Shown here: positions 87-46,454 of the stretch, in pieces | Position numbering within the stretch: position 1 is the first letter of the stretch | Layout of the letters: every line of letters starts with the position of its first letter | IMG/VR virus record: IMGVR_UViG_3300030118_005656 | Coordinates: 7,601 to 57,000 of that record | Reading direction: 5' to 3' (one strand) | Length of the DNA: 49,400 nucleotides | From: a virus | The notes under the pieces: generated by a model | Databases searched by the model: none | Seen by the model: the letters and a program-made list of their open reading frames with translations, nothing else | What the model was told of the DNA's origin: nothing | Program-made: the position numbers and the translations under genes

Positions 87-98
87 CTTATTTCTTCT

Positions 99-130
99 TT
101 TGTTTGTTTGTTTGTTTGTTTGTTTGTTTG
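99..130. repeat. Tetranucleotide tract, eight TTTG (CAAA) units
   Basis: Eight perfect TTTG units lie between the palindrome at 131-150 and the ATG at 84-86 of the partial minus-strand gene. The paralogous tract at 643-662 has five units, so tract length has changed since duplication. Confidence 0.9.
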
Positions 131-150
131 AACCGGGACATGTCCCGATT
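131..150. promoter_or_regulatory. 20-bp palindromic operator-like site 1
   Basis: AACCGGGACATGTCCCGATT is a palindrome with one mismatched pair. It lies directly upstream of the CAAA tract and start of the partial minus-strand gene. The same site recurs at 192-211 and 663-682. Dyads of this size in front of small phage genes are typical repressor-binding sites; the binding protein is not known. Confidence 0.6.
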
Positions 151-191
151 CGGTTTTGATGCTGTTATAAATAGCACCACCTCAACCAGCG

Positions 192-211
192 AACCGGGAC
201 ATGTCCCGATT
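192..211. promoter_or_regulatory. 20-bp palindromic operator-like site 2
   Basis: Same sequence as the site at 131-150, with centres 61 bp apart (about six helical turns). It lies between the stop of the 133-aa gene (229) and the start of its upstream-truncated paralogue. Confidence 0.6.
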
Positions 212-228
212 CGTTGGCTGCCACGGTG

Positions 229-630
229 TTACTTAACGAGTGAAATAATTTCTTCCGCTTGTTCTTCTGTCATACCCTCTTCAACCGCCGCCGTCACGGC
301 TTTTAGAGCAGTCTCAAACTTAGTAACCGGAGTGGGGGGAGGCGTGAGATAACCGCAAACACGATTGAGTGCTTTCTTGGCGGATTCCGCCCTTTTTCCG
401 ACAAACATCGGACCCTTACGGCCATCTTCAACGGTGCAATTGTATTTCCTAGCAACAATAGGACGTATGTCATTCTTGAATACTTTTAAGCGCCTGTCGG
501 AAAGATATTGGTTTTCTCTTAGGTTGAATTCCTTTCGGAGTAAATCAATTAACCTTTCGTTAGAACGTGAAGCGGCATCGTTTTTTGACATGTTGGTTAC
601 AAGGGCGTTTTCGATTTCTTTTGATATCAT
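229..630 (-). CDS. Small protein of unknown function, candidate regulator (133 aa)
   Basis: I do not recognise a family. The protein is charged and mostly helical. Residues 20-60 are rich in Arg, Glu and Leu (NERLIDLLRKEFNLRENQ). A short proline stretch (LTPPPTPVT) separates this from a C-terminal helical tail ending EEQAEEIISLVK. It has a partial tandem paralogue at 1-86, and both copies are preceded by CAAA repeats and a 20-bp palindrome. A role in regulation is inferred only from this context; no helix-turn-helix is clear by eye. Confidence 0.6.
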   Translation of the reverse strand: MISKEIENALVTNMSKNDAASRSNERLIDLLRKEFNLRENQYLSDRRLKVFKNDIRPIVARKYNCTVEDGRKGPMFVGKRAESAKKALNRVCGYLTPPPTPVTKFETALKAVTAAVEEGMTEEQAEEIISLVK

Positions 631-5660: not shown

Positions 5661-5879
5661 ATTGACTCTTGTCTTAATTAATGTTTTAGTGTTTAAAATC
5701 GAGATAGATTGTCAGGTTGCTCTAGCCATAAAATAGTTCTATTGACTTACTAACTCTAAAACTCGTCGAAGACTTTACGGTTGCTCTAGCCTTACAAATA
5801 GTTCTAAAGCGGTCAAAGACGGTCCTAGTCTGCTAATGTACTATTCATTAGCACATCTAAACCACAACCCCGTTTTATC
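5661..5879 (+). promoter_or_regulatory. Capsid-gene leader with tandem repeats and hairpin
   Basis: No ORF is present. Two copies of a 27-bp motif beginning GGTTGCTCTAGCC and ending TAGTTCTA lie at 5715-5741 and 5779-5805 (centres 64 bp apart). TTGACT hexamers occur at 5662-5667 and 5742-5747, without strong -10 boxes at ideal spacing. A 7-bp hairpin GCTAATG/CATTAGC (5832-5852) lies in the presumed 5' leader, 27 nt before the capsid ATG. Together this looks like a dedicated, possibly activator-controlled promoter region with a stabilised leader. Confidence 0.55.
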
Positions 5880-7175
5880 ATGTCAACATTTGACTTAGGT
5901 TCCGCAGGAACCACTGCAATTAATACGATTCTGGCTGAAGAAGCCAACCGAATCAACCAAGACGTATACACCCGGACTGTCCACACTTCTGCGTGGATGG
6001 ATCTGATGAAGCAAACTGCCTTCCCGGATGGGATGGGTTATCAACTCAGCACCCTCGTGTATGATCGGGCTATCCCGACTACCGACTCTGCTGGTGATAC
6101 TGCTGGTGTTAACTGGTCTGCACTCGGAACTCTGAATGCATCCGCCAACTCTTTCGACACCTCTGACCTCGGACAGCCCCTCAAGGACGCTGCTGATGAT
6201 GTTCAGGGTGGTCGCGGAACAGGCGCTGCTGACAACCGTTCGTTTGTTCAGTTCTCCAAGCAACTCAAGAAATACAACATCGACCGAGCAGTAATCGAGT
6301 CCCCACGCATCTCGCTGGAAGACCTTCGCTTCGCCGCTCACCGTCAGGAACAGCTTCGTGCCATCATGGACAACATGGCTGAGTCTACCCGATACACTTG
6401 GGAGAATCGCTACCGTGATGAGTTCTCGAAAGTATCTGACAGCTACATCGGTGCTGTTGCTTCTGGAACTGCTATTCAGTCCGGTTTTGAAGGCACTGAA
6501 CTAGCTGGTACTGTCGATCTCGGCACTGCTGGTTCCTTCACCGTCCCAACGAGCAACATCTCCAACGCTCTCCTCGACAAGTCTTACTTCAACCTCGTCC
6601 GCAAGGGTGCAGGTAGCGAGGCTTATGGTCGTGAGAACGGTCGCCCCGTGTTTGGCCTTGTTCTTAGTTCTGAGGCTTCCTACCAGCTTCAGACCGAAGC
6701 AGGTTTCCGCGACGATGTTCGTTACAACAACAGCAAGGTCAGTGATCTCATCGCTCCTCTCGGTGTTGAGAAATCATTCCGTGGTTTCTATCACCTTGTC
6801 GATGATCTCGCTCCTCGCTTCACTCTGGCGAATACGGATCAGATTACCCGAGTTCTCCCTTACGCGGTTTCCAGTGGTGTGACCACTCCAAACAGTGCTT
6901 ACGAGACTGCTGAATACGAAGCAGCTTTCGTGATTCACCCACACGTTTGCGAGTCTCAGATCCCGAATCCGTTCAGCGGAGCGCAAGGTATCTCCTTCGA
7001 TCCTGTTAGCTACCGTGGTGACTTCAAGTGGACGAACATCCCTAACGAGGTTACTAACCCAGACGGAACTATTGGTTTCTTCCGTGGCGTTCTCGCCAGT
7101 GCGACCAAGCCAATCAAGACTGATCTCGGTTTTGTCATTCTGTTCAAGCGGACCTCCACAACTCCCGCTGCGTAA
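5880..7175 (+). CDS. Major capsid protein
   Basis: A 431-aa protein placed directly after the scaffold with its own terminator-bounded unit. It lacks signal or membrane segments and has a codon choice dominated by C-ending codons unlike its neighbours, consistent with very high expression. The N-terminal helix (INTILAEEANRINQDVYTRT) and the middle region KQLKKYNIDRAVIESPRISLEDLRFA are typical of HK97-fold coat proteins of podo- and siphoviruses. A strong hairpin follows 15 nt after the stop. Assignment is by order, size and expression signals; no similarity search was possible. Confidence 0.8.
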   Translation: MSTFDLGSAGTTAINTILAEEANRINQDVYTRTVHTSAWMDLMKQTAFPDGMGYQLSTLVYDRAIPTTDSAGDTAGVNWSALGTLNASANSFDTSDLGQPLKDAADDVQGGRGTGAADNRSFVQFSKQLKKYNIDRAVIESPRISLEDLRFAAHRQEQLRAIMDNMAESTRYTWENRYRDEFSKVSDSYIGAVASGTAIQSGFEGTELAGTVDLGTAGSFTVPTSNISNALLDKSYFNLVRKGAGSEAYGRENGRPVFGLVLSSEASYQLQTEAGFRDDVRYNNSKVSDLIAPLGVEKSFRGFYHLVDDLAPRFTLANTDQITRVLPYAVSSGVTTPNSAYETAEYEAAFVIHPHVCESQIPNPFSGAQGISFDPVSYRGDFKWTNIPNEVTNPDGTIGFFRGVLASATKPIKTDLGFVILFKRTSTTPAA

Positions 7176-7190
7176 TAACCCACTTAGTTT

Positions 7191-7217
7191 GAGAGGGGTG
7201 GTAACTCCACCCCTCTC
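7191..7217 (+). terminator. Hairpin after capsid gene (partial terminator/attenuator)
   Basis: GAGAGGGGTGG (7191-7201) and CCACCCCTCTC (7207-7217) form a perfect 11-bp stem with loop TAACT. Only a weak T-tract follows (TTGCTAAG), so it probably reduces rather than stops transcription into the following head genes. Confidence 0.7.
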
Positions 7218-7244
7218 TTGCTAAGGACAACAAAGAAGGATATC

Positions 7245-7455: not shown

Positions 7456-8373
7456 ATGGGGCTACCTGTAAAACCAACAGATATTATGGCTCTTAGCGAA
7501 TATCATAAAAAGAGGCTACAAGAAAAGATCCTTGAGATGTCTGATGAGGATCTTATCGGACTCGTCGAGGCCCAGTCCCAAACTGCTGGATTTAACCCAG
7601 ACGTCGAAGAACGACAAATGGTGGGCGTCCAGTATGCGAGAGGAACTAAGGCGGGGCGGAAAAGATACGAAGACGCTAAAGCTCTAGCGGCTGCCCGTCT
7701 AGCTGAGATGGGCGAAATGGTTGACGCAGAGCAGCAGAGACGTGCAGACCTCAGATCAGATGAAATTGATATACGTGAGAACGTCAAACAAGCTCCCGAA
7801 GTATCTCCCTTTGCACCAAAGTCCGTAATGGATAGAGATCCAGAAGAAGCTGGGATGAACCTCGCCGATATAGTTGAAAGGCGGCTTGCATTGCAACAAG
7901 CAATCGCAGACTCCGATGATCCTCAGATGCAGAGAGAATCAAGTGAGATTGACTCCGAGACCGCACCCACTGTTCGTGATGACGAAGATATGCGGGAGGT
8001 ATCTCGCAATAAAGGAGATAAACGCGCAAAAAGGCGAGCGAGGAGAAAAGAACGAAAAAGTCAATTACCTGAGCCACCCGAGGAGAATACAGCAATAGAT
8101 TTTGTAGGAAAAGCCGAGCCAAGTGGTAGCCCTCTGATAGGGACAGATGATATCAAGGTGTCAGATCCTATGTCGGAGCCTATGTCAGAGCCCATGGTAG
8201 AGCTTAGTGAAGAAGAGGCTGGGCGTCTATTTAGGCTTATCATGGGCAGTTCCTTCGACCCTGTGTCATCAATGGATAAGGGTAAGATGGAAATACTGAA
8301 GAAGGCAAAAGCCGAGAATCCTGATCTCACAGACAATCAACTCGCCCTCAAAATCTATCGCGATTACATGTAA
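7456..8373 (+). CDS. Charged virion-associated protein of unknown function (305 aa)
   Basis: No family recognised. Highly charged and probably largely disordered in the centre. A basic patch (RNKGDKRAKRRARRKERKSQL, about residues 185-205) is followed by the short repeat DPMSEPMSEPM (about 237-247). The last 60 residues form a more ordered helical segment (EEEAGRLFRLIMGSS). An alternative start is the ATG at 7486. The stop overlaps the next ATG by one base, so the two genes are translationally coupled. Position suggests a head protein. Confidence 0.55.
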   Translation: MGLPVKPTDIMALSEYHKKRLQEKILEMSDEDLIGLVEAQSQTAGFNPDVEERQMVGVQYARGTKAGRKRYEDAKALAAARLAEMGEMVDAEQQRRADLRSDEIDIRENVKQAPEVSPFAPKSVMDRDPEEAGMNLADIVERRLALQQAIADSDDPQMQRESSEIDSETAPTVRDDEDMREVSRNKGDKRAKRRARRKERKSQLPEPPEENTAIDFVGKAEPSGSPLIGTDDIKVSDPMSEPMSEPMVELSEEEAGRLFRLIMGSSFDPVSSMDKGKMEILKKAKAENPDLTDNQLALKIYRDYM

Positions 8374-8690
8374 TGAACTACGTTGATAAAAAAGAGTCAG
8401 GAGAAGTCAAGGATCTGGAGATGGCCGAGCAACAGCTTCGCAATATCCACGCTAATGCGATTGACTTGCTCAGACATCTAGAGAAACAACCCCACTGCCC
8501 TCTACTGTCTCAGGCTTGGGTTCAGTCAAAAGTTACTTTGTCGAATGCTTATGTTGACTCAGTTCGTGACTATGTTATCAACAGTCAAAAAGAACTAGAA
8601 CACATGGATGATGATGACGGAGTATATGACAGCGATGATGGCCCCACGGGCTTCCTCATTGCTGTCGAGAAGAGTGCATCAAAGTATTAA
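8373..8690 (+). CDS. Hypothetical protein (105 aa)
   Basis: Starts within the stop of the previous gene (TAATG arrangement). Helical, with two Cys/His-containing stretches (LEKQPHCPLLSQAW) and an acidic tail (EHMDDDDGVYDSDDG). No recognised domain. It belongs to the small head/tail gene run between capsid and sulfotransferase-like genes. Confidence 0.5.
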   Translation: MNYVDKKESGEVKDLEMAEQQLRNIHANAIDLLRHLEKQPHCPLLSQAWVQSKVTLSNAYVDSVRDYVINSQKELEHMDDDDGVYDSDDGPTGFLIAVEKSASKY

Positions 8691-8701
8691 TCCTAGACAC
8701 C

Positions 8702-8965
8702 ATGACAAACGATATCGAAAAACAATCAGCAGGTAGAGGCGGCGCAACTTTTGTCAACACGACAGGAAGCCCAGTCAGTGGAGAATACTGTGCTATTCAG
8801 TGTGTTTCTAATAACACCAACTTTAGCTCTATCACCATGGATGCACTAGACGGCGACACTATAAGCAGCAGCGATAATTTCCCTGCTGGCTTCACTATTC
8901 TGGGAAGCATCAAATCGTTTACTTTGAACAGTGGGTCCGTTATTGCTTATAAGGCGGTATCCTAA
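8702..8965 (+). CDS. Small beta-rich virion protein, possible decoration protein (87 aa)
   Basis: A Gly/Ser/Thr-rich sequence with alternating hydrophobic residues and no charged coiled coil suggests an all-beta fold (SSDNFPAGFTILGSIKSFTL). The FPAGxxIxGxIxSFTLxSG pattern occurs in many small phage virion proteins of unknown role. Starts 11 nt after the preceding gene without a Shine-Dalgarno sequence. Decoration or fibre-tip function is inference. Confidence 0.5.
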   Translation: MTNDIEKQSAGRGGATFVNTTGSPVSGEYCAIQCVSNNTNFSSITMDALDGDTISSSDNFPAGFTILGSIKSFTLNSGSVIAYKAVS

Positions 8966-8977
8966 CCTAGATTCAGA

Positions 8978-9280
8978 ATGAGTTGGGCACAGGCCATATC
9001 AGAGGTTAAGCCCGAGTTACTTCGATGGGCTGTAAACTACTTCGGCCTAGCTATCGTCTTGGGAGTCTGCTCATGGCTCCTCTGGGGTGAGTATCAAGCT
9101 CAGATTGATGCTAGGTTCGCATCTATCGAGCGAGAACTTAGCAGCTACAAAGATCGAGTAGGTTTCCTAGAGGCGGACGCGCTCCACCGAAGGACTATTG
9201 AAGCAGAAGAGCAGAAGCAGCGAGCCGAATTGTTCTCGGCCATAGAGCGACACCTAGACTCGATCAGCCGCTCGAACTAG
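8978..9280 (+). CDS. Membrane-anchored coiled-coil protein (100 aa)
   Basis: One transmembrane helix (about residues 20-36, YFGLAIVLGVCSWLLW) is followed by a long coiled coil to the C-terminus. This architecture fits a minor membrane-interacting virion protein, an inner spanin or a single-pass holin-like protein. The main holin and spanins are encoded at 14.6-15.2 kb, so its job is open. Confidence 0.5.
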   Translation: MSWAQAISEVKPELLRWAVNYFGLAIVLGVCSWLLWGEYQAQIDARFASIERELSSYKDRVGFLEADALHRRTIEAEEQKQRAELFSAIERHLDSISRSN

Positions 9281-9316: not shown

Positions 9317-10081
9317 ATGAGAAAGATAAAATTCGCGGGTATACGGAGAAGTGGTAATCACGCGGTTTTGGGGTGGGTAGCTGAGAAGTTTATAGGGGGA
9401 AAGACTTTCTTTCTGAATGATGTGGTGCTTGATCGAGATTACTCCAGTAAGAAAAAATCAGACTCTCTCCCCACAGATAAACTATGTCGCCGAGGAAAGG
9501 CTTCGCTGTTTTTATCTAGCTATGAAGATAAAAGTTTAGCTGAGTTTAATAACCACCAACCATTATTGGATGTGGTACACACGGGGGAAACGAAAGTTGT
9601 ACTCCTGAGAGATCCTTTCAATACGTTTGCCAGCCGACTCAAATGTATAAGGAGTCGTCGGGACAACCAGTATATGCAGAGACTTTTGAATGACGAACCT
9701 TCTCTGCTAAAGGGTGGGATGCCGGAAATATCCAGCCTCTGGAAAGAATATGCTAAGGAATACTTAGGCGTGACCAAAACCCTGAAAGGCAAAGTCATAT
9801 TTGTTAATTACAATCTGTGGACTCAAGATCCAGTCTACCGGACTAAGTTAGCAAAGGCTTTAGGGCTGCTAGAAGACGGCGAGCCTTTTGAGAGAGTCCC
9901 CGGCTACGGTTTTGGGAGTTCTTTTGATAATCGGAAAAAAGACGGAAAAGCCACAGAGATGGACTTAGCGACTCGGTGGAAGGGATATCGCGAGGACGAG
10001 GATTATCTTAATTACTTTGATAAGGAGATCTATGATTTATCCAATGAGATATTCCCCGACATAGGCAACCCATTCAGGTAA
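9317..10081 (+). CDS. Sulfotransferase-like protein (PAPS-binding fold)
   Basis: The N-terminus GIRRSGNHAVLGWV (residues 8-21) matches the 5'-phosphosulfate-binding loop of sulfotransferases. VVLLRDPFNTFASRL (residues 94-108) matches the 3'-phosphate-binding motif (RDPxxxxxS). The full length of 254 aa is normal for the domain. Members transfer sulfate from PAPS to sugars, proteins or small molecules; the substrate here is unknown. It begins a run of serine-rich virion genes and is followed by a glycosyltransferase, suggesting modification of virion glycans or of the host surface. A P-loop kinase of another kind is the main alternative. Confidence 0.65.
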   Translation: MRKIKFAGIRRSGNHAVLGWVAEKFIGGKTFFLNDVVLDRDYSSKKKSDSLPTDKLCRRGKASLFLSSYEDKSLAEFNNHQPLLDVVHTGETKVVLLRDPFNTFASRLKCIRSRRDNQYMQRLLNDEPSLLKGGMPEISSLWKEYAKEYLGVTKTLKGKVIFVNYNLWTQDPVYRTKLAKALGLLEDGEPFERVPGYGFGSSFDNRKKDGKATEMDLATRWKGYREDEDYLNYFDKEIYDLSNEIFPDIGNPFR

Positions 10082-10133
10082 CAGACCTTTTGAGTTGCAA
10101 TTAGGGATAACAAGAGCAACTTTACTCTTGGGC

Positions 10134-10433
10134 ATGAAACTAGGTTTAAACAAAACATTGTCGGTTGGTGGGTTGGATACACCCCTCATTGGGAACGCCG
10201 GGGCGGGTGGATCATCGTCCTCGTCTTCAAGCTCACAACAGAGTTCTTCAAGCTCACAACAGAGTTCTTCAAGCTCGCAGCAAAGTTCTTCAAGCTCGCA
10301 GCAGAGTTCTTCAAGTGCGCAGAGTTCTTCCAGTTCACAGCAGAGTTCTTCAAGTGCGCAGAGTTCTTCCAGTTCACAGCAGAGTTCTTCCAGTTCACAG
10401 CAGAGTAGCTCATCAAGTTCATCATCTCAGTAA
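10134..10433 (+). CDS. Serine/glutamine-repeat protein (99 aa)
   Basis: A short hydrophobic/glycine-rich N-terminus (MKLGLNKTLSVGGLDTPLIG) is followed by a tract of Ser runs interrupted by QQ or AQ to the C-terminus. The start is the ATG at 10134; an in-frame TTG at 10095 would add 13 residues. The DNA is a 21-bp tandem repeat, later shifting to related units. Such tracts act as flexible linkers or as O-glycosylation substrates. It sits between the sulfotransferase-like gene and a large putative tail protein. The N-terminal module may be an anchoring peptide. Confidence 0.6.
   Translation: MKLGLNKTLSVGGLDTPLIGNAGAGGSSSSSSSSQQSSSSSQQSSSSSQQSSSSSQQSSSSAQSSSSSQQSSSSAQSSSSSQQSSSSSQQSSSSSSSSQ
10212..10430. 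repeat. Tandem repeat encoding Ser5-Gln2 units
   Basis: The unit is 21 bp, composed of five serine codons mixing AGY and TCN types plus CAA/CAG. There are about four clean copies, then variants with GCG CAG. It forms the bulk of the 99-aa gene. Confidence 0.85.
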
Positions 10434-10445
10434 GACCGATTCGAT

Positions 10446-11711
10446 ATGCCAATCAATGTTGGAAGTCAGCCTACACCGAAGAGACAGAGAGTCCTTACCT
10501 TTGTCAGCCCTAACGTGGCCGACATACTATTTTACGAGACTGTCGATACCCAGCGTGTGAAAGAGAACATCCCTGCTTACGGGACAGCGCACCCAGACAC
10601 GACCAATTGGCCTAACCACGAACTCGTCTATGTGCAGCAAGACAGCGCAGAGGGACAACTTTATCGCTACTACTATGCGGCTAATCGAGCCTCCCAAGAT
10701 GCCTATAACTACGAACTACGAGATGGCTCCGAGCTTACGCGGACTTACATTATTAAGAGAAGCGAGTATCCATCTACGTTGACCCCACCCGCTGGAGGAA
10801 CTCTTGACAGCGTGTTCACAGATTACGGGTTTGTGGGTGACACCATAAGAAGTATAGGAGACCCCTTGTCTGGGGTTTACATTGCTGTTCAACGTAGATT
10901 TGTTGTCCCCCAGACTGTTGACCACATATACGACGCTAACCTAGAGGGTAATATCAAAGTTACTAAGACTATTGTTCCGTCGGGGTATGACCTTGTAGCG
11001 CAAGGCATAACCAACTCACCCGGAGACACCAACGAAGTCCGTCACGGGAATAACTTTCACGATGTTCTTATTAACCAAACCATCAAGGACAGTGAAGGAA
11101 ACATCGCGGATAGAAATCTTGAGACCGTATATGGATCACAAAAGTATGACGGGATACCTCAGAGATTAGATTCAGTAGATTTTGACTTTCTCGCTGCTTG
11201 GCAGACGGGAACTAATTCAAACGGTGATAGAACAGGTCAGTATTCTGAAGATAATACCGCTGAGTTTCCGGTCACCGCCCCGTCATCTGGCCCGTTTAAA
11301 ACAAAAATACAACGAACTCTAACTACAACCCCGCAAACAAAAGTAGACGCTATATTGTCTTCAGCCACGCTTTTGCCTAGACCAAAACGACAAGATGTGT
11401 CTTACAAGTATGTGGCATATAGCACGAACCCACCAACGGCGCAAGCATCAGCTAGGCAATACACTCTTCCTGCTGCGATACACGGGTCTATCACAGTTAA
11501 TATAAACGGGGTAGTTAATGGTTCTTCAACTGCCCCCACTGGAATCACTATAGAGCGCGTCTTTGAGCCGACTTCACTCCCCGCGACTCCCGGATTCAAC
11601 GGGACTGATTTGGTTGGTGATTACTTGATAAATGTGACGGTGAGGCAGACTAGCCTCGACTTATTTGTCGTGGAGTCCACAGAATTGCAGCTAAACGGAG
11701 TATACTCGTAG
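10446..11711 (+). CDS. Putative virion (tail/baseplate) protein (421 aa)
   Basis: No family recognised. Soluble and beta-rich, with many Thr/Val/Tyr strands. Residues 1-60 contain HPDTTNWPNHELVYVQQD, and the C-terminal half contains Ig-like strand patterns (GSITVNINGVVNGSSTAPTG). It is encoded in a run of genes carrying serine-rich tracts, 12 nt after one and 4 nt before another. A tail or adhesion-structure component is the most likely role, inferred from position and composition. Confidence 0.55.
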   Translation: MPINVGSQPTPKRQRVLTFVSPNVADILFYETVDTQRVKENIPAYGTAHPDTTNWPNHELVYVQQDSAEGQLYRYYYAANRASQDAYNYELRDGSELTRTYIIKRSEYPSTLTPPAGGTLDSVFTDYGFVGDTIRSIGDPLSGVYIAVQRRFVVPQTVDHIYDANLEGNIKVTKTIVPSGYDLVAQGITNSPGDTNEVRHGNNFHDVLINQTIKDSEGNIADRNLETVYGSQKYDGIPQRLDSVDFDFLAAWQTGTNSNGDRTGQYSEDNTAEFPVTAPSSGPFKTKIQRTLTTTPQTKVDAILSSATLLPRPKRQDVSYKYVAYSTNPPTAQASARQYTLPAAIHGSITVNINGVVNGSSTAPTGITIERVFEPTSLPATPGFNGTDLVGDYLINVTVRQTSLDLFVVESTELQLNGVYS

Positions 11712-11715
11712 AGTA

Positions 11716-12363
11716 ATGGCTGAAGAATTCCAGTATTCACAAGTTAACGCGAGTGCCCCCGAAGAATCTTTTGGGAACCTGTCTGGAGTGGAGACCCAGA
11801 TCCCTAATCCAGATCTCGTTTACGGCCCGTTAGAAGTAGGTCCATGGCCGGATAATCCTATTGTAGACTTCGCCCCTATGGGGCTTTTCATACAAAAAGA
11901 AGCCCCAATGTTTGGGGATTCTGATTCCAGTTCCAGTTCCAGTTCCAGTTCCAGTTCCAGTAGTTCCAAGTCTACGGCTATTGTGCCGTGTAATTGGAAT
12001 GAAACAGGTTACACAGCACTGTTTATTGCAGAGATGCCAGAGGTCCGATTCGATGATCACGTTGAAATATCTCCTACTAAGAGGTTCAGTAAGATTCCCC
12101 TAGATTCTAAATTTTTAGAAGTTTGTGAGCCAGATACGGTCAGGGTTATTTCGGCCATAGGAGATACAGGAAGTGTTCGCTACGCCAGAGTCGAAGAAAA
12201 AGAAATAGTCTTATCCCTACCTCTTTTTATGAGACCAAAAAAAGTTTTCGTCCGCTTAAGTGGTATACGTAGGGGTTTCCGGGGTCACCGATTCCCTGAC
12301 AGAACAGAGAACCAGTTCATACACAACGAGAAGTTTATTAACTCGGCATATCCAGATAAATGA
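11716..12363 (+). CDS. Virion protein with internal poly-serine linker (215 aa)
   Basis: An N-terminal segment of about 70 residues is joined by a run of about 14 Ser (residues 72-86) to a C-terminal beta-rich domain (NETGYTALFIAEMPEVRFDDHVEISP). The arrangement resembles two modules tethered by a polyserine linker. The serine DNA is a TTCCAG hexamer repeat, unlike the repeats in neighbouring genes. Function unknown; probable tail component. Confidence 0.55.
   Translation: MAEEFQYSQVNASAPEESFGNLSGVETQIPNPDLVYGPLEVGPWPDNPIVDFAPMGLFIQKEAPMFGDSDSSSSSSSSSSSSSSKSTAIVPCNWNETGYTALFIAEMPEVRFDDHVEISPTKRFSKIPLDSKFLEVCEPDTVRVISAIGDTGSVRYARVEEKEIVLSLPLFMRPKKVFVRLSGIRRGFRGHRFPDRTENQFIHNEKFINSAYPDK
11925..11968. 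repeat. Hexamer repeat (TTCCAG)n encoding poly-Ser
   Basis: About six perfect TTCCAG units read in the TCC-AGT serine frame within the 215-aa gene. Confidence 0.85.
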
Positions 12364-12364
12364 T

Positions 12365-12529
12365 ATGAGTTCTTCTGATAGTAGTGCATATGGTAGTTCA
12401 AGTAGTGCTGGCAGTGTGAGCAGTAGTAGCAGCATAACCAGTGGTAGTGGTAGCAGCAGTAGCAGTAGTAGCAGTAGTAGCAGTAGTAGCAGTAACTATG
12501 GTTCCTCGAAAACCTCTGGCTCTGTCTAG
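12365..12529 (+). CDS. Serine-rich peptide (54 aa)
   Basis: The ATG lies 1 nt after the preceding stop. Nearly the whole peptide is Ser with some Gly, Thr and Tyr; the long central run is built from AGC/AGT codons. Its stop overlaps the stop of the antisense glycosyltransferase gene by 4 nt. It could be a detached serine tail, a glycan-carrying surface peptide or a decaying gene. Expression is not proven. Confidence 0.4.
   Translation: MSSSDSSAYGSSSSAGSVSSSSSITSGSGSSSSSSSSSSSSSSNYGSSKTSGSV
12441..12494. repeat. AGC/AGT triplet repeat encoding poly-Ser
   Basis: Serine codons here are almost exclusively AGY, in contrast with the TCN/AGY hexamers at 11.9 and 14.2 kb. Confidence 0.8.
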
Positions 12530-13530
12530 CTCAAGTACTGTTCTACTTCTGACCAAATTATCTTATTTACAGTGGGGGACGCTCCTCCATCAATATACTT
12601 TCTGATTGATCTAACAACGTCATCTGAGGTTATCATATCCATGCATCTTGGTATCGGTGGCCCATCTCCTCTAGTTGCAACAGGCATACTACAAAGACTA
12701 GAGTCTTGGCTAGACCCATCATTTCTAGGTTCTACTCTTGACTTCCAACAGCCTCCCGTTTGACAACAAGGGAGTGCCCCTTGGGTGTGGAGAAACTGAT
12801 GACTCGGATAGTGTTCCCAAGAAACAGGTTCTCTGCCACCAGCAATAACTACACAAGGTCTACAGGGAAACTTATTATTCTTGGTAGGGACCGCAGCAGC
12901 CATGTGCATAAGGCCGGTCACGGGACACACCACCCCAGAACTGTGATAAACTAGGCGTACGAGTTGTCGGTTATCTGTTTTCCCTCTAAGATCAATAGCA
13001 CCCTTGAGAGGCGGGTGGTGATGATCGTTAGTACCCACTTGAACAAATAATATCTCTCCCTTTAGAGCATCAACCACCTCCTGATATCTCTCATTATCCC
13101 ACCATTTACACGTAAAGTCATACTTACCTCCAGATACGATAATCCAGAAAGGGACTTCATATTTCGTTATGTTTTGAATTTGATTTATCCACTGTTTTTC
13201 TTCATTGGATAAGTGTATGTCTCCCCTGAACTCTGTTATAGGAATAGGTAACTTTAATTTATCAGAAAGAAATTCGTGGTATGCTTCTATGAAATGTATA
13301 GGTCTTCTATTACTTTCGTGTATTGCCGGGTATTCTAGTCTTATACATTCAACCCCCTCGTTTGAGTCAAACTTGTGAATGTAGGGGTTATGCTCAAATA
13401 ATTCAGAAGCGGACCCTTGATAGCCTGTCTGAAACTGCCCCGGATACTCTTTGTGTAGGTCTCTAAGAACAGACGTACTAACTACCACATCCCCTAGACT
13501 TAATTTATTTTCTAGAATTATTTTACGCAT
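12526..13530 (-). CDS. GT9-like glycosyltransferase, antisense insertion in virion operon
   Basis: A 334-aa protein resembling heptosyltransferase-type (GT9) enzymes, which transfer sugars from nucleotide donors. Motifs are SLGDVVVSTS (residues 11-20), KWWDNERYQEVVDAL (142-156), DLRGKT (180-185), PVTGLMHMAAAVP (203-215, donor-site loop) and GGREP (231-235). A cysteine-rich C-terminal segment, CCQTGGCWKSR (255-265) plus C280 and C296, suggests a metal site. It is the only minus-strand gene between 0.9 and 17.6 kb and is flanked by two serine-rich genes, typical of a laterally acquired moron. Substrate is unknown; serine-rich virion proteins or host envelope glycans are the candidates. Confidence 0.7.
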   Translation of the reverse strand: MRKIILENKLSLGDVVVSTSVLRDLHKEYPGQFQTGYQGSASELFEHNPYIHKFDSNEGVECIRLEYPAIHESNRRPIHFIEAYHEFLSDKLKLPIPITEFRGDIHLSNEEKQWINQIQNITKYEVPFWIIVSGGKYDFTCKWWDNERYQEVVDALKGEILFVQVGTNDHHHPPLKGAIDLRGKTDNRQLVRLVYHSSGVVCPVTGLMHMAAAVPTKNNKFPCRPCVVIAGGREPVSWEHYPSHQFLHTQGALPCCQTGGCWKSRVEPRNDGSSQDSSLCSMPVATRGDGPPIPRCMDMITSDDVVRSIRKYIDGGASPTVNKIIWSEVEQYLS

Positions 13531-13582
13531 AGGGTATTCTTTTTCAGCATTGAAATTATGCTTTAATACACTACTTTATACT

Positions 13583-14212
13583 ATGGCCCAAACTGTCGCG
13601 TCCCTTTCGACATACCTCTCGACCTACATACCTCCGGGAGAAACTTTTGTCAATTATTTGAACTTAGCGTTGCCCAGACTTTATTCTATGGGGTACTGGA
13701 GAGATCTCATGTTTGAGCATACGATCTCAACCACAAACAATTACTTTGCCCTCCCTTACGAGGCTGAGTCTGTGGTTTCGGCGGTTGTTGATGGCTTCCC
13801 GGTTGATATGAACGCGAGGTGGCAAGACTACCGAACTAATGGGCGCTTCGTAAATAGTCCCGATGAGATATATGGGATCGTCGATGACGGGCTACACCCC
13901 ACCAAAGTTGACTTGAACGAGTCCAAAAGATACAACATCGAGGCGAGGCCAGTACTCCCGAACAACCTCTTGCCGAGTTCCGGTTCTATTTTTGTAGTCT
14001 ACGTTAATAAGAATGGCGGTAAGATAGAGCATGAGATCGTGATGAATGGGTTGGGGTCGGCGGGGACTTCTCTTGGATATAATCTTGGGGCCGTTTCCGT
14101 TGATAGTATTCGTTTCGATGGAGTCACAGATTTTGTAGAAGTGGTAGCCGTAGAGATAGACATTGAGTCCTCTAGTTCTAGCTCTAGTTCTAGCTCTAGT
14201 TCGAGTCCATAA
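13583..14212 (+). CDS. Virion protein with C-terminal poly-serine tail (209 aa)
   Basis: The ATG at 13583 is chosen because a longer reading frame would run back through the antisense glycosyltransferase. The N-terminal 195 residues look folded (ETFVNYLNLALPRLYSMGYW; later VVSAVVDGFPVDMNARW). This is followed by a C-terminal run of about 13 Ser. The SxGYWRDL-type N-terminus occurs in small tail adaptor proteins of podovirus-like phages, but I cannot assign it. Likely tail component. Confidence 0.55.
   Translation: MAQTVASLSTYLSTYIPPGETFVNYLNLALPRLYSMGYWRDLMFEHTISTTNNYFALPYEAESVVSAVVDGFPVDMNARWQDYRTNGRFVNSPDEIYGIVDDGLHPTKVDLNESKRYNIEARPVLPNNLLPSSGSIFVVYVNKNGGKIEHEIVMNGLGSAGTSLGYNLGAVSVDSIRFDGVTDFVEVVAVEIDIESSSSSSSSSSSSSP
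14168..14206. repeat. Hexamer/dodecamer repeat (TCTAGT/TCTAGC) encoding poly-Ser
   Basis: Alternating TCT and AGT/AGC codons encode the serine tail of the 209-aa protein; the repeat unit differs from the other three tracts. Confidence 0.8.
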
Positions 14213-14243: not shown

Positions 14244-14600
14244 ATGGAGACACTGACGTTAGCTAAAGGCCGTGGTAACGACATACCACGATACAGGAGA
14301 TTTCGGCTCGCTAACCCCCAAGCTAAGGAAAAGCACATAGCCTTACTTTTGAAGAGGCGTTTTTTCCCTCTTCTTGATAATACAGATGTAGTTAATCTAT
14401 CTAATATAAACGTCATAAAACACGCTTTGTTAGGTACGGTAGCTGAAGATAACTCAGATACGGAAAGAGCTAATTTTCACTGGGGAATGTGTAAAATGAT
14501 TCTTGATGAGGAAAAAGATGCTTTTCGTGGGATGGCGAAGCCCAAAGTTAATCTTGACCCCACAGGGCAGACGGGGCATAGTATTAGGAACATCTTATAA
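14244..14600 (+). CDS. Hypothetical protein upstream of lysis genes (118 aa)
   Basis: Basic N-terminus (LAKGRGNDIPRYRRFRLANPQAK) and a helical centre (LSNINVIKHALLGTVAEDNSD). No family recognised. It ends 5 nt before the holin start, so it is probably the last gene of the virion run or the first of the lysis transcript. Confidence 0.5.
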   Translation: METLTLAKGRGNDIPRYRRFRLANPQAKEKHIALLLKRRFFPLLDNTDVVNLSNINVIKHALLGTVAEDNSDTERANFHWGMCKMILDEEKDAFRGMAKPKVNLDPTGQTGHSIRNIL

Positions 14601-31278: not shown

Positions 31279-34200
31279 ATGGCCTCTCCCTATATTCTAC
31301 CCACATACCTTGACACTGAGGAACTGGAGCCGGAATCGGAACCAAGTTACAAGAAGTATACCGATTGGTTGACGGAGGAGTTAGGAAAGGACAACCCAAC
31401 CCTTCCCGCCCTACTCAAAGTAGATGACGCTAACCCGGAAGACCCTCACGGAGAATACGTAAAAAGATACGGCCAGTACCTCGCTGATACTTTCTTGGAC
31501 ACCGGAGAATACTCTGAGGAACATACTGTCAAAGATATTTTTGAGGCTCAAGTAGGTCTACTGAGGAGAAGAGGAGTTTTGTCTGACGGGTCGAACCCCG
31601 AAGAAGATGAAATTACTATTGATGCTTTAAAGCTCTTCGGGCCTAAAGAAAAAGATTTTAACGAGATCACGGGCGACGTCCTAGATTTTACGGGTCGAGA
31701 TATTGGGGAGGGCTTCCGAGACGCCGCTTCTGTCTATAATGGATACCTGCAAGAGGGTCTCTTAGATACCGAACAGGGAATCGAGGCCCGAGAAAAGTTT
31801 GAAGCAGAGCTTTCAAACCTCGAAAACAGGAACGCGCTAGGCCGAGCCATGGTCAGCGAGAGGCTGGATGATCCCATCAAAGGGGTAGCCTTTGCCGAGA
31901 TAAAAAGCGTTGATGAAGACGGCGAGGAAAAAGTCGATCTGTTCTACCCGCGACCAGTCCCCGAGGACCAGCTTAAGCGAGAAATCAAAAAAGCTCTAGA
32001 TAAGGGAGTTATCTCTTATGAGAGCGTACCCGAGATTTTGCGGCTATCAAAAGTCCCCAAGACATCGGGAGGCATGACTATTCAGGAAGTTTTTAGATCT
32101 CGTGAGATCGAGGCCGCACTCCAAGAGGATGACCTGAAACCGTACTTAGATCAGTTTACCAAGTTAGCAGAGCTTAAGGCTGCTGAACACTATTTGGAAA
32201 CACACGAGGGGGCCACTGCACCCAATCTTATAGAAAAAGCCGAAAAAATCTTAGACACTTATGAGGCTAAATCAGAGCTAGGAAGATTTGAAGACAGAGA
32301 GGGCGGGGGACTTGATGCGGATATTCTTGCTGAGACGATAGCTTTTGAGCTAAACAACCGTCGAGACGACGAAGGAAACTCTTTACTAGATACTGGAGAC
32401 GTCGTTACCCAAGAAGAAGTCAGATCTTTTGTCGATATTATGTCGGCTAGGACGGCGATGAATTATACGGAGTATGTTGACCCCAACGATTTTGAAGGCG
32501 CTGCAAAGTCTAATATCATAGCTCTTCCTAGCGGAGAAGTTGTAATACACCCTAAACTTGTTTACCAAGAGGAACATTTTGAGAAATCTTTGGCGGGATA
32601 CGATGACGTTCTGACCTCTGAAGAAAAAGAAATGGCGAGGCTAAAACGAGAAGTCTTGATGGAAGGGTATGCTTCCGACACAGATAAACAACTCCAAGAG
32701 CTAGAGGAAGACGAGGATTCTTACATAGAAGGGTGGGTGGAGTTCCGTAACGCCGAGAGAGATAAAGGGGCCAAACTGCCCGAGATCATTGAAAGTTATC
32801 TGGGAGACGAAGATAATTTTAAAGAGTTTGAAATCAGGAGCGGCGGCGTCCTAGGCTCGCTAGGTTACATGTTTAAGGGAATAGGTTTAGCACTACCTGC
32901 GGTGTTAGGCAGCGAATCAGCTAAAGACTATTTTGTAGAATTTGAAAAAAATAACGCCAAAAGGCGAGAAATAGCTAACTTGTTTGGTCGTGACCTCGGT
33001 TTTCGTCAGGACTTGATGGAGGGCGTAGCTCCTCTGATCGCTGATGCTTTTGTGACGGGAGTATTGTCATTTTTTACGGCGGGTCTTGGTGGCGCGGCGT
33101 ATGTAAGTGCTAGGGTAGGGTCACGAGTAGGAATCAAGGCGTTAACAAAGGCCATGGTTACGGGGTCACTCAAAGAGACCGCAGAAAAAAGCGCACAAGA
33201 TATCGTTCTCAGAGAGTCACTAGATGGGATCTTTGCCGCTGGAAGAGCAGGGAAGTCACTCAAGATGACTAATGATGAGGCTCTCAGTATTATCAAAGGG
33301 TTCAACGAAGCTCGTGCAGGAACTAGCACTTATGGACAACTGACTCGGACTCCCGGCGTATTTATTGGGGCAGCTAACCGACAATCCGGTATGGCATACT
33401 CTAGCACGTATACCGCTCTGGAGGGGCAGACAAACCCTGAAACAGGTGAAGAGTACACCCCTGAAGAGCTTAGGAAAATATCTCTAGCTTCAGGTTTGAT
33501 ACAAGGATCAATCACAGGTCTGCTAGTTTCGGCCTTTAGCCTTGCTAAGTTGGGTGGTTTGGAAGACTTATTCTTGTCGGGGGCAAATACATCTCAAATT
33601 TTAAAAGCGATCAACAGCTTTGCCAGCACGAAAGGGTTGTCTGCGAGTGTCAGAGGTAAACTTACTGAAGACAACTTTAAAAAAGTAGTAGCAAGCAACC
33701 TTAAAAAAGTCATCAAAGATAGTGGCTTAAAAGGCTTGGGAGTTGCGCAACGCATTCCGGGCGCATTAAAGACAGGTGTAAGAGCAGGTCTGGAGGAATT
33801 TCCAGAGGAAGCACTGGATCAGTTTGTAAACGGAATTGTTCAGGACGCTTTCACGGGTCAAGATACATCTCTGTTTCAGCGTCTCAAAGACTCATTCTAT
33901 GCTGGAGCTATCGGGGGTGTATTGGGATTATCGGCAGGAACTGTCCGAGGCATATATGACAAAGTATCAGGCAAGGCCACCAGAGCTACCCAACAGACTA
34001 TTAGAGAAATGGAGACCAAGCTCTCCGATAGAGTAGCGGCAGAACTACAAGAAAGTGGCAGCCCGATCACCGCTGATGTCGTTAGGACGATCTTAGAAGC
34101 ATCTAGTGGGCGGAAAACGATACCTGTTCCCGTAGGCGACGGAACTGCCCAGATAACCGCAGGTCAGTTGTTGGAGGCCACGCTACCCGCTTCGATAGAA

Positions 34201-37200
34201 GAAGTTCAGGAAACAGAAGCAGCGATCCAACAAGCCCTTGAGGGTGAAGAGGACGCTTCCGCGACAGTGGCCCGAGGAGGTCTCGACGGGGAGCCAGCAG
34301 ACCCCGACCTCGACGACAGCAACAGGGTGTCTAACCTGAATGATAGGTATAAGCCAAAATCAGAAACCGAACAAGAAAAGAGCGACATCCCTGATAGCAA
34401 AAAGGAACAGGCTCGGGCTAAAGGAGTAGACCCCAACAAAGCTAAAGTTAAGAAAGCCTCACCAGACACTGCTAAAAACCGGAGCAAGAAAAAAGCAGAG
34501 AAAGACCAAAGAAAAAAAGCGAAGCAGTCAAAAAGGCGGTCAGATACCGCCAAGAAGATGCGAGCTAGGAACAAAGCGAAAGCTCAAGAGGCCAATGAGA
34601 GAGCGCAAGCAAAGAAGATGCAAGCAACGCCTAGAAGAAAGGCTGCTCCTAGAAAGGCCACTACGCAGAAAAATAAAGAGTCGTTTAATAATGTCGATGA
34701 GAAAAAATTTGGCACAAAGTTTAAAGCAGTCGCTGAAGAGAATGCTACTTTGTTAGATCTATTAGAATCGTTGGCAGTATCGGTGTATGTCGTTGAAGAC
34801 TTCGAGCAAGCAAAAGCAGTTGCTAAAAGAGACGTCGAAGATCGAAAAGGAACGTCTTTTAAAACTACAATAGACGGCAAACCAGCCATCATTATGATGG
34901 CTGATCGGATAAACAGAAGTGACGGCAAGAGAAACACTAAAGGGGCTAGAAAGAAGTTACAACAGACTTTATTCCACGAAGCGATACACGCCAGCCAAGA
35001 TACCTTTGTTACTGAAACAGGTAACCAAGAATTAGTAGTGCAAGCTGCACAGATATTCGACCCGAAGAGTGAGTCATATGATAAGGCGATCACCGAGTTC
35101 ATGCAGAAGGAGTATAAGAACTTTAATGATCTATCCCCAAATCAGAAAGTTGCTGAACTCACCCGCGCTATTGTTGAAGGCAGGACTGATAACACAACCA
35201 GCGGCGCGTTGTCTCGCAGCGTAGTTTTCAAAGCCTACCTGACTAAATTCTTAGCTTACATTAAAAATATTTTTAGTAGTGTTGAAGGCGAAGCCGCCAG
35301 CCCTGATTTAGAAGCACTACAAACTCTGGTCGTAGGTATTGAAAAAACCATGGGCCTAACAACAGAAGATACTTCTGCCAGAGAACCAACTAACGAAGGC
35401 TTACCAGAAGCTCCCCCTAGAAGAGAGTCACCTGAAAAGACTACCCCTAGATTATCTTTTAAGTTAAACGAAGATAACGAAGTAGAGTTGATATCATTTT
35501 CCCACGGAAATGAGTCGTATTTTATAAAAGCTGACAGAGATGGCATCTCTGGAATGGACGCGACAACTTCTCTTAGGGAACCCGAACAAGCTCGACCGAC
35601 AGAAGATTTGCCAGAAACTGCTTCAAAACAGAAAAAACAAGCCAGACAAAATCTAGAGTCTCAGTGGGCTGCGTATGACGAGGCCCAAAGAAAAATCTCT
35701 ATCATTAAAAGCACAAAAGACTACAGGGATTTTGATAACTACAGGGAATCATACTTACTTATGCTAGATATCCTCGGCCCCGAGGTAGCAATTGGGGTCT
35801 TTAGTGCTTACTCGTCCCCCGATTTTAGTAGTCAAATAGAATCACTTTTTGGGGATGTGGCTGTCATAACAGGAGGCCCAAAAGATCCGACCACTGACAC
35901 AGGTAGAGCCATCACTGTCCGCAAACTTGGAGAAGACGGGGAATTCACGGAGATTGAATTAACTAGTGCGTCCACCAGTGTAGGCAAAGTAGGCGACCAA
36001 AGAGTGCTAAGAGCTAAGGACGGCGATAATAACATCAGATTCAACGAAACTGGGCAATCTACCGACGCTGACGGAAACCCAGACGGCAAGTATGTCGTGG
36101 TCGCAAAAGAGTCTCCCTTCATAGCCCTGACTGGGAAAGGGAAGATTAACCTTAATGGTACGACTCGAGTTAGGGTGGGGGATGTTATACAGATTCAAGA
36201 ACGACAGGACAGTGAAGATGTTTCGCAGTTTACGGTTACCCGCATGGTGCTTAAAGGGGATAGCGTTGACAGTGTTGACTTACTGCCTTACACCGAGACG
36301 CAAGAGCAAGACGCCGATCTTATTAAGGAACTACCAATAAAAGAGCTAAAAAAGAACTTTAGCGTCACAAGGTTTGCCAGCAGATATCTTGGAACCACTC
36401 AAGAATATGAGCAAGGCATAATAGATGAAAGGGTTGATCAAGAGCTTAATCCCAAATTTTCGTTTGAGCAAAGTCTCAATCAATACTTCAAAAAATTCTT
36501 CAGTGTTCTAGATAAAAGAAAAGAACAAAAAGATCCGTCTGCTCTTCAGGTTTTCAATAACCTGACCCCAGAGGAACAAACGACTTACAATAAAGTCAAG
36601 AGCCTTGTGGAAGAACAAGAAGGCCAAAGAAAACTTAAGATAGAAGAAGAGCCTCTTTTTAGGGACACCCTGTCGTTATTTAAAAAATTAGTGGATGTAG
36701 GGCCAGATGATAAGGGGCGATCTATTGGTAGTTTGAAAGACAAAACCTTAATAGGTAACTCCATCCTTAAAATAAGCCAAGATACAAAAAGAAAAGCTGA
36801 GAGAAAAATCTCACCCCCGGTAAGAAGAGGTGCTGCTGAAGATTTCCGACAAATGGCTATCGCCGCTTTGGGTGACACTAAACTTTTTGAAGCGACTTCC
36901 GAAATATTCAAGCCTTATGACGGAGATCTTGATTTTGTCGAACAGTTAGCGTCGTCAGAAGAGAACAATATAGAGAGAGCAAAGCAAAAACTAGTCGAGT
37001 ATATAGTTAACAACGCCATCAAAGGTGGTTATCGCTGGCACTCTTCTACTAACGTAGAACAATCCGCTAGAAGGTTTCCTAGCGATCTCCGGGAAATCCT
37101 CGTGTTGTTAGGGCCACAAAGGCTAGCTAAAATAAATGAGGCAATAAATGGTATAATAGCTGAAAAATATCCCGTGCTTGATTTTGTAAAAACCCCTCCG

Positions 37201-40200
37201 GCAGGGGCTGTTAAAAAAGGAGAACTGTTTGTAGATAAAGAAAATAACCTAGTTGCCTTCGATAATAACCCCGTAAATATGGCGAGGGCATTGAACGATA
37301 AATATACCGTAAAGTTTAGTGTCCACGAAGAAGGGGTAGAAGATCCCCCTCCTAACAGCGTGGCTAAGAGTGAGATTAACCGTGCATTCAAATATGAAAG
37401 AATATTCAAGGATGAATCAGGGACAGTTTTTTACAAACTAACAGAAGTATCGGCCACCTATTTCCCAGTTAATGGGATACCAGAGATTATCCCCATCGTC
37501 ACAGAAGACAAGCAGGTCATCCAGCTAAACTTCGAGAGAGACCCCGAGAGCGTGAAAAAAGTGGGGGCTGCTTCTGATGTTATACTAGAAAGAGAAAGTG
37601 TTTTCTCTGGTGTGTTAGCAGATGGTAACTTTTCGGCTTTTGCCACGATCCCGCGAACTGAATCCAAGTCCAGTAAACCCGATTTCAAAGTTAGAGGTAA
37701 GTCCAAGGATAGAGAAAGAGGACGCACAGGTAAAGATAAACTAGATGTCTCTATTCTTTTAGCCGAGTTGGCAGAGGCAAGTGATGCGGAACTTGAGGAG
37801 GTAGCAGTCACGGTTGGTCAAATGACGCCCGGATCAGTTATAGATAACGCTTATCAGGCAGCGAGTGTAGTAGCCCTGAATGATTTTATGGCGAAGTGGT
37901 TTCGTGCGAAACTTAATAGCTACGTTGATCTAGTAGAGACAAAAGATTCTAAGGGAAGGACGACGCAAAGACTTGAGTATGACCACGACACAGTAGTCGA
38001 CGAGCTACTAAAACTTAAAATACAAAAGAAAAATAAACAGAGTGAAGAAGTGTCGTATTCTGTATTCTTGGAGTCTGAAGGTAAATTTGTACTAGATAAT
38101 TATGACGGCAAGGATACTACAGAAGAGCAAGTTAAGGCTTTTATAACAGACGTATACCGCAACAGGGTGAGTTCTAGAAAAGGGTTTGATAAATCAATCC
38201 ACTTGGGGAAAACACAAGTTAAAGGAATATTTCAAACCAGACTAAGTGCAGAAAACGAAGCGTCCAAAAAGAGATACGAACTTCCAGTAGTATCAACGGA
38301 TCAGGATTTAGAGATAGAAGGCAACACCGGAGGTTTTAACCTACTAGATATTCTGGACCCCGTCTTATTAGAACCTCTTGGAGCTACCGCAGAAGGAAAA
38401 GAAGCACCCGTTACCAGTGCGCCATTACAAAGAGTAATCTATGATGAGTCCTCAGAATACGATTCTGTATCGGGCTTGGCGTTGACGACGGAAGACGTAG
38501 CTTCCGAGACGCCGGTAGATTTCCCCACCGCGCGACAACAAGAACCCGCTTTCCGACACGTAGTCCAAGGCATAGCCGCCCACTCACCCGCAGCAAGGAC
38601 ACAGGGGCAAACTGTTGATGGGCCCATTAGAATAAACGTAGGGGACGAAATTGTATCTTTTGTTCTCAAGAGACCCGACCCAGAAACTGGAGAGACCGCC
38701 CTCGTTACTCGGGATGCGCGTGAACTATCTCCAGTAGACGTACAGAATATCATATTCCGAAGCGGAAGCGACGACTCAACATCAGAGAATTTTTCCGATG
38801 TCGAGTCATTCAAAGTTGTTTTCCGAACACCGAGATCTGTAGACCCGGTATCATCTGGCTTTATTGATTATCAAACCCCTAGAGATTTAAGAGATTCTCA
38901 AAGACGAAGACAGAGAGAAATTGAAGCTGAGAACTATGAGAGATACGGCAAAGATAACACCATAGCTTACCGCATAGCGGAGTCTATTCGCACAAACCCA
39001 CGTTTACTGCGCTCTGTTCTCATCGACGAAATCGGACCCGAGGGGATGCGTGAATTGAGAAATCTCTACAATAAGTTTAATGAAACTGGAAGAGATCTTA
39101 AACCTACCGACCCTGCTGACGACATCACACGAGGGCTTACTGATGAAGATGTAATAGGATTACTACTACAAGTTCAAGAAAATGCCTCGGTGGAGTCAGA
39201 TAGTGCCAGAGCTAATGAATTCAATGCCCTGTTTAATAATGTGCAAGCCAAAGACACTAAGACTGCTAGGGGACTTAGTACTGTTCGTAATTTGTTGAGT
39301 TCAGTCTATCGCGCTGCGGTAGCAACATATAATGGGACAGATATCAGCGGCGCTTATGATCTTAGTCTTGATCCCGGGATTGGGGGTCAGCTACCCCTCA
39401 ATCAGATAATTGAAAAAGCCCTAGAAGGTTCTGACGTAGAAATTGACCTGAGTCAAATTAATCCAAATGTTAGAGACTATTTAGTTAACACGGTTAGCGA
39501 GCGCCTACTTATCTTATTCGGTACGAATGTACAATCTGAACTCAGAGCTAAATCTACGGCTAAGACCGTCGCCCAAAGAAACGCGGCCCAAGAAGCGAAT
39601 ACAAAAGAAGCGGAAGAACTCGGACTGGAGTCGGGCGACCCCGAGTCCGTTAAGAGGGCGTTCAAAAAGATTGTTAATAATACAGACTACCCGCTGTATC
39701 TTCAGGCGACTGCACAAGCACTACTCGACTCGGAGACAGCTTGGGTAGATACCAAGTTCGTCATGGCATCTTTTTACGGGCTGGATGCGGCTGGACTCTT
39801 CAACAAAGAAAACAATACAGTTACCCTGAACCTCCGTGGGACTAACGGAAAATCTTTAGCTAGCGTTCTGATTCACGAGTATATCCACGCGATAACTCAC
39901 GAGGCGATCAGTAACCCCACGAAAGCCGAAAGTCCTGTGGTTTCCAACTTGAGAAATTCCTACGAGGAGATCAAAGAACTATATGAGAAGTCTGAACAAG
40001 GGGTTCGCAGTATCGAGATGGATGAAGGACTGTCCAGCTTGGATGAGTTTATCTCTTACTTCTTTACGAGCAGCACTTTTCAAAATGAGATCAAGTCCCT
40101 CGCGGCGAAAGTTGGCGACACCGTAGCCCAGAAAAAGAACTTCTTTAGGAGGACCATCGACGCGATACTAGATATCATAGGAATATCTAAAGCAGATAGG

Positions 40201-46380: not shown

Positions 46381-46381
46381 G

Positions 46382-46454
<73 letters not shown>

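Follow-up and report, generated by a model that had tools for sequence, protein, structure and literature searches.

A finger-type family 9 glycosyltransferase, a sulfotransferase-fold enzyme and serine-tract genes form a candidate virion glycosylation module in an uncultured phage

The DNA analysed here, a stretch of 49,400 nt (the window; G000:C1:7601-57000), comes from a 57-kb record of an uncultured virus and contains, between positions 9317 and 14212, a sulfotransferase-fold gene, four open reading frames (ORFs) with serine tracts and a gene for a glycosyltransferase of family 9 (GT9). All of them, first listed in a sequence-only reading, were found where that reading had placed them; only the start listed for the last serine-tract ORF, 13451, was too early, and the ATG at 13583 was used as its coding start. 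Gene order runs from portal-, scaffold- and major capsid protein (MCP)-like genes through short genes to this module region, followed by adaptor-like genes and an amidase, which, together with a terminase match, suggests a tailed phage with a podovirus-like layout. The sulfotransferase-fold protein, the GT9, a neighbouring 421-aa protein and the MCP had no match among the cultured phages of INPHARED.

The first gene of the module, ST1 (9317-10081, + strand), encodes a predicted sulfotransferase-fold enzyme of 254 aa and occupies a variable 'tailoring' slot. It is followed on the same strand by serine-tract ORF 1 (10134-10433), with a short conserved N-terminus (LIGNAG-G), SSSSSQQ repeats and nine copies of a 21-bp DNA repeat; by a conserved, probable virion protein of 421 aa (10446-11711; 86% identity to that of the related locus L001); by a second probable virion protein, in which (TCCAGT)n repeats code for an internal tract of 14 Ser (11716-12363); and by serine-tract ORF 2 (12365-12529), whose 54 aa are mostly serine, with a 14-Ser tract and AGC/AGT repeats. 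The GT9 gene lies on the opposite strand (12526-13530, -) and encodes a GT-B enzyme with a Cys finger, hereafter finger-GT9, predicted to be a poly-Ser O-glycosyltransferase. Beyond it are the N-part of a probable head-tail adaptor, with a C-terminal 13-Ser tract (13583-14212, +), and its C-part (14244-14600, +); in the related locus L009, one ORF of 321 aa without a Ser tract (12041-13006) contains both parts, and in the window the gene is split exactly at the tract. The claim that the tracts sit on virion proteins agrees with their position among head and tail genes, but most of the Ser-tract and virion proteins had no Pfam or PHROG match and no family match proves a structural role in this phage, so that this role rests on gene order.

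Relatives were gathered with ST1, the 421-aa protein and GT9 (L001/L008, L003, L004, L005, L006/L007, L009, L010, L013 and L020). In every related locus covering the place, GT9 is antisense and directly precedes the adaptor-like gene, and Ser tracts occur among the flanking structural genes wherever these are covered, differing in length, sequence and DNA repeat unit. Counterparts of ORF 1 are present in L001, L003, L005, L006, L007 and L013, and those of ORF 2 in L003 and L013, with similar, GSPKTSGSV-like C-termini in L001, L004 and L006; in L009, the 421-aa protein itself carries a C-terminal Ser tract, with SSS/RSSSSS repeats at its end. Because tracts and GT9 recur at matching places, and strong purifying selection acts on GT9 (dN/dS about 0.03-0.06), their co-occurrence is not due to chance.

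The variable slot lies between the short gene at 8978 and the first Ser ORF, or whichever gene corresponds to it. It holds ST1 in the window, L003 and L013; ST1, a methyltransferase-like gene and a second sulfotransferase-like gene, ST2, in L001; the methyltransferase-like gene and ST2 in L005-L007; in L009, a protein of 524 aa that combines a GT-like N-terminal part with a Methyltransf_24 domain; and, in L010, a homolog of this last protein together with a collagen-like gene and a sulfotransferase of the PF03567 type. Where covered, the slot thus always contains sulfotransferase and/or methyltransferase/GT-like genes. Its Pfam matches include PF03567 (L010, 1.8e-16) and Methyltransf_24 (3.5e-15); the GT-like part of the L009 protein and the methyltransferase of L001 and L005-L007 were read from motifs, and Pfam confirmed neither. 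ST1 is less conserved than GT9 and absent in some relatives. Since GT9 and the tracts are constant whereas the slot genes differ, we consider the former the core of the module and the tailoring enzymes its variable part; the expectation that relatives carry both enzymes together with the tracts therefore held for GT9, but not for the sulfotransferase. In L010, the slot sulfotransferase is followed by the collagen-like gene and by one for a Gly-rich protein whose Ser tract is made of SSSSLM repeats (5873-7237 and 7716-8996).

The window GT9 matched PF01075 with 35.2 bits, against a cut-off of 22, and in an alignment of 35 members residues D14, K142, C256, C261, C280 and C296 were invariant and C255 nearly so. 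Its structural model (pLDDT 77) gave VIA Z scores of 22.7 with a Veillonella GT9, 20.3 with WaaF and 18.8 with TibC, and residues 1..319 aligned to 96..395 of TibC, the protein starting at the catalytic domain. TibC, a protein O-heptosyltransferase, has a four-Cys iron finger, D110 as its catalytic base and K230; its acceptor is serine, not threonine (PMC4358343). The BAHT family (TibC, AAH; autotransporter O-heptosyltransferases, TIGR04414) and finger-GT9 have in common the GT-B catalytic domain, with D14/K142 corresponding to D110/K230 and the four Cys equally placed before the last helix; serine would be the acceptor on both sides, as a prediction for finger-GT9. TIGR04414 works as a search model and supplied two genuine BAHT proteins for profile comparison. 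In hhalign, GT9 aligned to these with E=6.8e-4 and a probability of only 27%, with all four Cys, the CKWW/CKYW motif (CKWWD on CKYWN) and the end helix in register, and with H209 near the position of Trp-305 in the sugar site of TibC; Arg-286, of the same site, had no clear partner in this alignment. The finger is thus placed like the iron finger of TibC and may bind a metal; a Cys finger is not known as a feature of lipopolysaccharide (LPS) heptosyltransferases.

Unlike BAHT enzymes, finger-GT9 lacks the N-terminal beta-barrel of TibC and had no TIGR04414 match in an NCBIfam scan, where the sole models listed were those of LPS heptosyltransferases, each scoring far under its cut-off; for these reasons we did not file it as BAHT. 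It also differs in its coupling to a sulfotransferase and in its predicted acceptors, poly-Ser tracts instead of autotransporter beta-helices, and may differ in the His that the alignment puts near Trp-305. It appears to be a BAHT relative and may act in a similar way. A scan of bacterial and archaeal genomes with the GT9 alignment gave homologs at 80 loci (~48-56% identity) in Verrucomicrobia, Planctomycetes, Burkholderiales, Nitrospira, Bacteroidetes, Acidobacteria and others, and by sequence they constitute a distinct GT9 subfamily. In L023 and L024, finger-GT9 is part of longer ORFs of 786 and 835 aa, the latter also with a methyltransferase domain.

We then compared the surroundings of finger-GT9 genes, scoring as poly-Ser any mechanically called ORF with a run of at least 6 Ser, a threshold chosen after looking at the data, although other thresholds gave a similar picture. 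Around the 80 bacterial loci, which are the best-scoring ones and not a random sample, Ser-run ORFs amounted to 14/213 within 1 kb, 9/134 at 1-2 kb and 9/203 at 2-4 kb, falling to 4/189 at 4-6 kb and 3/312 at 6-10 kb. The 23/347 ORFs within 2 kb (at 23/80 loci) differ from the 3/312 at 6-10 kb in those loci (p=1.7e-4) and from the 0/334 counted for ordinary GT9s (ORFs in surrounding regions of up to 20 kb, 20 matched genomes; p=1.8e-7), which, unlike finger-GT9, have no poly-Ser neighbours. Outside this phage group, Ser runs were present in 60/1265 ORFs near finger-GT9 on viral contigs, at 37/69 loci; in 20 of these records, distal 19-kb regions had 0/505 such ORFs, compared with 15/419 near GT9 (p=6e-6). 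Other viral control loci, a small set of mostly distant GT9s aligning without the finger, gave 0/114. These p-values carry no kinship model, although relatedness was lowered (149 GT9 loci gave 144 clusters at 90%), and the viral records are fragments.

The enrichment is serine-specific: among homopolymer runs near GT9, serine accounted for 60/73 and 39/43, and threonine occurred once. The 48 poly-Ser proteins within 2 kb of GT9 fell into 37 families in masked BLAST comparisons, indicating that the pairing arose many times. In the unrelated phage L182, which has a GT9-ST1 fusion, the major tail protein (phrog_1407, 2e-14) has an SSSSSSA C-terminus. In the reciprocal direction, 40 viral records were picked only by a Ser-encoding AGY-TCN repeat, with 49 poly-Thr records as the control: finger-GT9 was present in 10/40 and 0/49 whole records, respectively, a count that includes one partial match and two near-identical records and is confounded by record length, whereas within loci the difference was weak (2/47 versus 0/87, p=0.12). 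We found no account of a link between GT9 and poly-Ser in the open-access literature. Ser proteins near the GT9 of unrelated phages were also considered as SU10-type adaptors, since five GT9 neighbours match PF24175, but the Ser proteins scanned have no such match. Separately, homologous Pro/Tyr/Phe- and Ser-rich proteins lie beside finger-GT9 in Caballeronia (L050) and Nitrospira (L061), a likeness that suggests transfer of the pair between phyla.

For ST1, a 5' loop (GIRRSGNHAV) and a 3' motif (VVLLRDPFNTFASRL) of the type that binds 3'-phosphoadenosine-5'-phosphosulfate (PAPS) were identified, and the corresponding phosphate-binding motifs, RSGxHA (5') and RDxxxxFASRL (3'), are kept in all seven ST1/ST2 rows of the alignment (7/7). 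Neither Pfam (including PF00685 and PF03567 over cut-off), NCBIfam, PHROG nor PDB sequences gave a match with ST1, and a PDB sequence search with the ST1 and GT9 profiles yielded nothing informative. A clear ST1 homolog in L198, however, reached 18.3 bits with PF00685 (Sulfotransfer_1; E=0.0016, cut-off 22), and sulfotransferases made up all 20 top Foldseek matches (20/20; E 4e-3) and all 50 top VIA matches (50/50; Z 7.2-9.5) of the ST1 model. By motifs and fold, ST1 is therefore a predicted PAPS-type sulfotransferase. Moreover, GT9 and ST1-type sequences are fused in single ORFs at five distinct loci, three on phage contigs (L182/L183, L201 and L211) and two in Verrucomicrobia (L035 and L048), whose GT9 parts are only 46-64% identical to one another, apart from the identical L182/L183 pair. 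ST1-type genes are also adjacent to or near GT9 in L198, L199, L092, L114 and L189, with none in 40 control regions. Homologs of the 524-aa slot protein of L009 and L010 likewise lie beside finger-GT9 in Caballeronia (L050) and Gemmataceae (L089), with poly-Ser proteins near both.

We propose, with a probability of about 0.68, that these genes form a module in which finger-GT9 O-glycosylates Ser tracts, in this phage those of virion proteins, and the attached sugar is then sulfated by ST1. Finger-GT9 would take a host-made activated sugar, by family most likely ADP-heptose, and place it on serine hydroxyls of poly-Ser tracts in head, neck and tail proteins, after which ST1 would sulfate that sugar with host PAPS as the donor. 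Elsewhere, slot enzymes could add further groups, either sulfate (ST1, ST2 or PF03567 types), methyl or additional sugars, and, since these enzymes are swapped among the phage group while GT9 and the Ser tracts stay, the outer decoration would vary. We infer this order of steps, the donor sugar, the acceptor serine and the product on the virion, whose benefit might lie in shielding, charge, adsorption or stability. That sulfotransferase, GT9 and tracts belong to one system had already been suggested by the sequence-only reading, and it gains support from the pairing of GT9 with unrelated poly-Ser proteins and its empty controls, the GT9-ST1 fusions, the reciprocal test and the kinship to Ser-specific protein O-heptosyltransferases. 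The same reading had taken it for a phage system; its parts are indeed found in phages, but they also occur in bacteria, and the proposed system is therefore not phage-specific.

Several observations weigh against the proposed module: the ST1 model is of low confidence (pLDDT 56); the barrel and the TIGR04414 match are missing from GT9, and the probability of its BAHT alignment is low; about half of the finger-GT9 loci are without a nearby Ser run; and the tracts could also be plain flexible linkers. In addition, most poly-Ser phage records lack finger-GT9, a count limited by their fragmentary nature. This absence is also what would be expected if the enzymes modified host surface glycans, such as LPS core or capsule, perhaps to keep other phages out, with the tracts being unmodified flexible linkers or tails on virion proteins. 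GT9 enzymes are classically LPS heptosyltransferases, and finger-GT9 has in common with WaaC and WaaF the Pfam family (PF01075), the fold and the catalytic Asp, these two being among its closest solved structures; poly-Ser tracts are, besides, known in polysaccharide-processing enzymes (PMC6821194). We nevertheless regard host-glycan modification as unlikely, because it leaves unexplained why finger-GT9, and not ordinary GT9, is paired with unrelated poly-Ser proteins, why the enrichment is limited to serine, and why the finger is shared with a family of Ser-specific protein O-heptosyltransferases.

It is also conceivable that GT9 glycosylates the tracts and ST1 acts on another target, its neighbourhood being a general cargo slot, as the lower conservation of ST1, its loss in some relatives and the presence of methyltransferases and a collagen-like gene in the slot would allow. 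This is improbable, since in phages and Verrucomicrobia GT9 and ST1 are fused in five distinct cases and lie immediately side by side in several others, and since slot sulfotransferases are replaced by other sulfotransferases. Finally, the tracts are encoded by simple DNA repeats whose unit and length vary, but that they are neutral microsatellite expansions with the enzymes as unrelated passengers is scarcely credible, given that differing repeat units encode Ser at equal places in relatives, that phage distal regions have no Ser runs and that no residue other than Ser is enriched in this way.

Serine-rich repeat glycoproteins of Gram-positive bacteria likewise combine a Ser-rich protein with dedicated glycosyltransferases encoded beside it, although their enzymes and secretion route differ from those of the finger-GT9 module. 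Beyond the window, we lean slightly towards the view that finger-GT9s make up a widespread family of protein O-glycosyltransferases, so far undescribed, for which a mere run of Ser would be the acceptor signal, with expandable poly-Ser tails on unrelated surface and virion proteins as attachment sites, and with sulfotransferases and methyltransferases swapped to vary the decoration. If so, poly-Ser tracts of phage and bacterial proteins, mostly read as linkers until now, would serve as glycosylation sites for an enzyme family of their own, and the virions of some phages would bear sulfated glycans. A direct prediction, open to testing, follows for many 'glycosyltransferase family 9' genes that are uncharacterised, and a Ser tag appended to a protein could make the enzyme a compact means of glycosylating it. 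Mycobacteriophage virions, according to work cited in PMC12619734, bear glycans at the C-termini of capsid and tail-tube subunits, so that C-terminal tails of virion proteins are involved there as they would be in the L182 tail protein with its C-terminal Ser run. The hosts are different, and poly-Ser acceptors and sulfation are predicted here.

Promoter-like sites showed no excess over chance. Near the start of the window are two TTTG tetranucleotide arrays ~500 bp apart, with 8 (99-130) and 5 (643-662) perfect copies, and the very end of the record is a perfect tandem array of the 12-bp unit CCCTGCTGGTCA (49324-49400; 6.4 copies), either a real repeat or an assembly-end artefact. A single 15-kb ORF of 5033 aa (31279-46380, +) takes up about a quarter of the record; none of its 1000-aa pieces had a PHROG match, and a Pfam scan of the first piece gave nothing significant. 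Directly behind its stop, on the opposite strand, lies a tRNA-Met gene (46381-46454, -). Towards the record end we also identified an NlpC/P60 protein (47528-47983) and a protein with a VWA-like domain (DUF2201, E=1.3e-10; 48561-49175, -).

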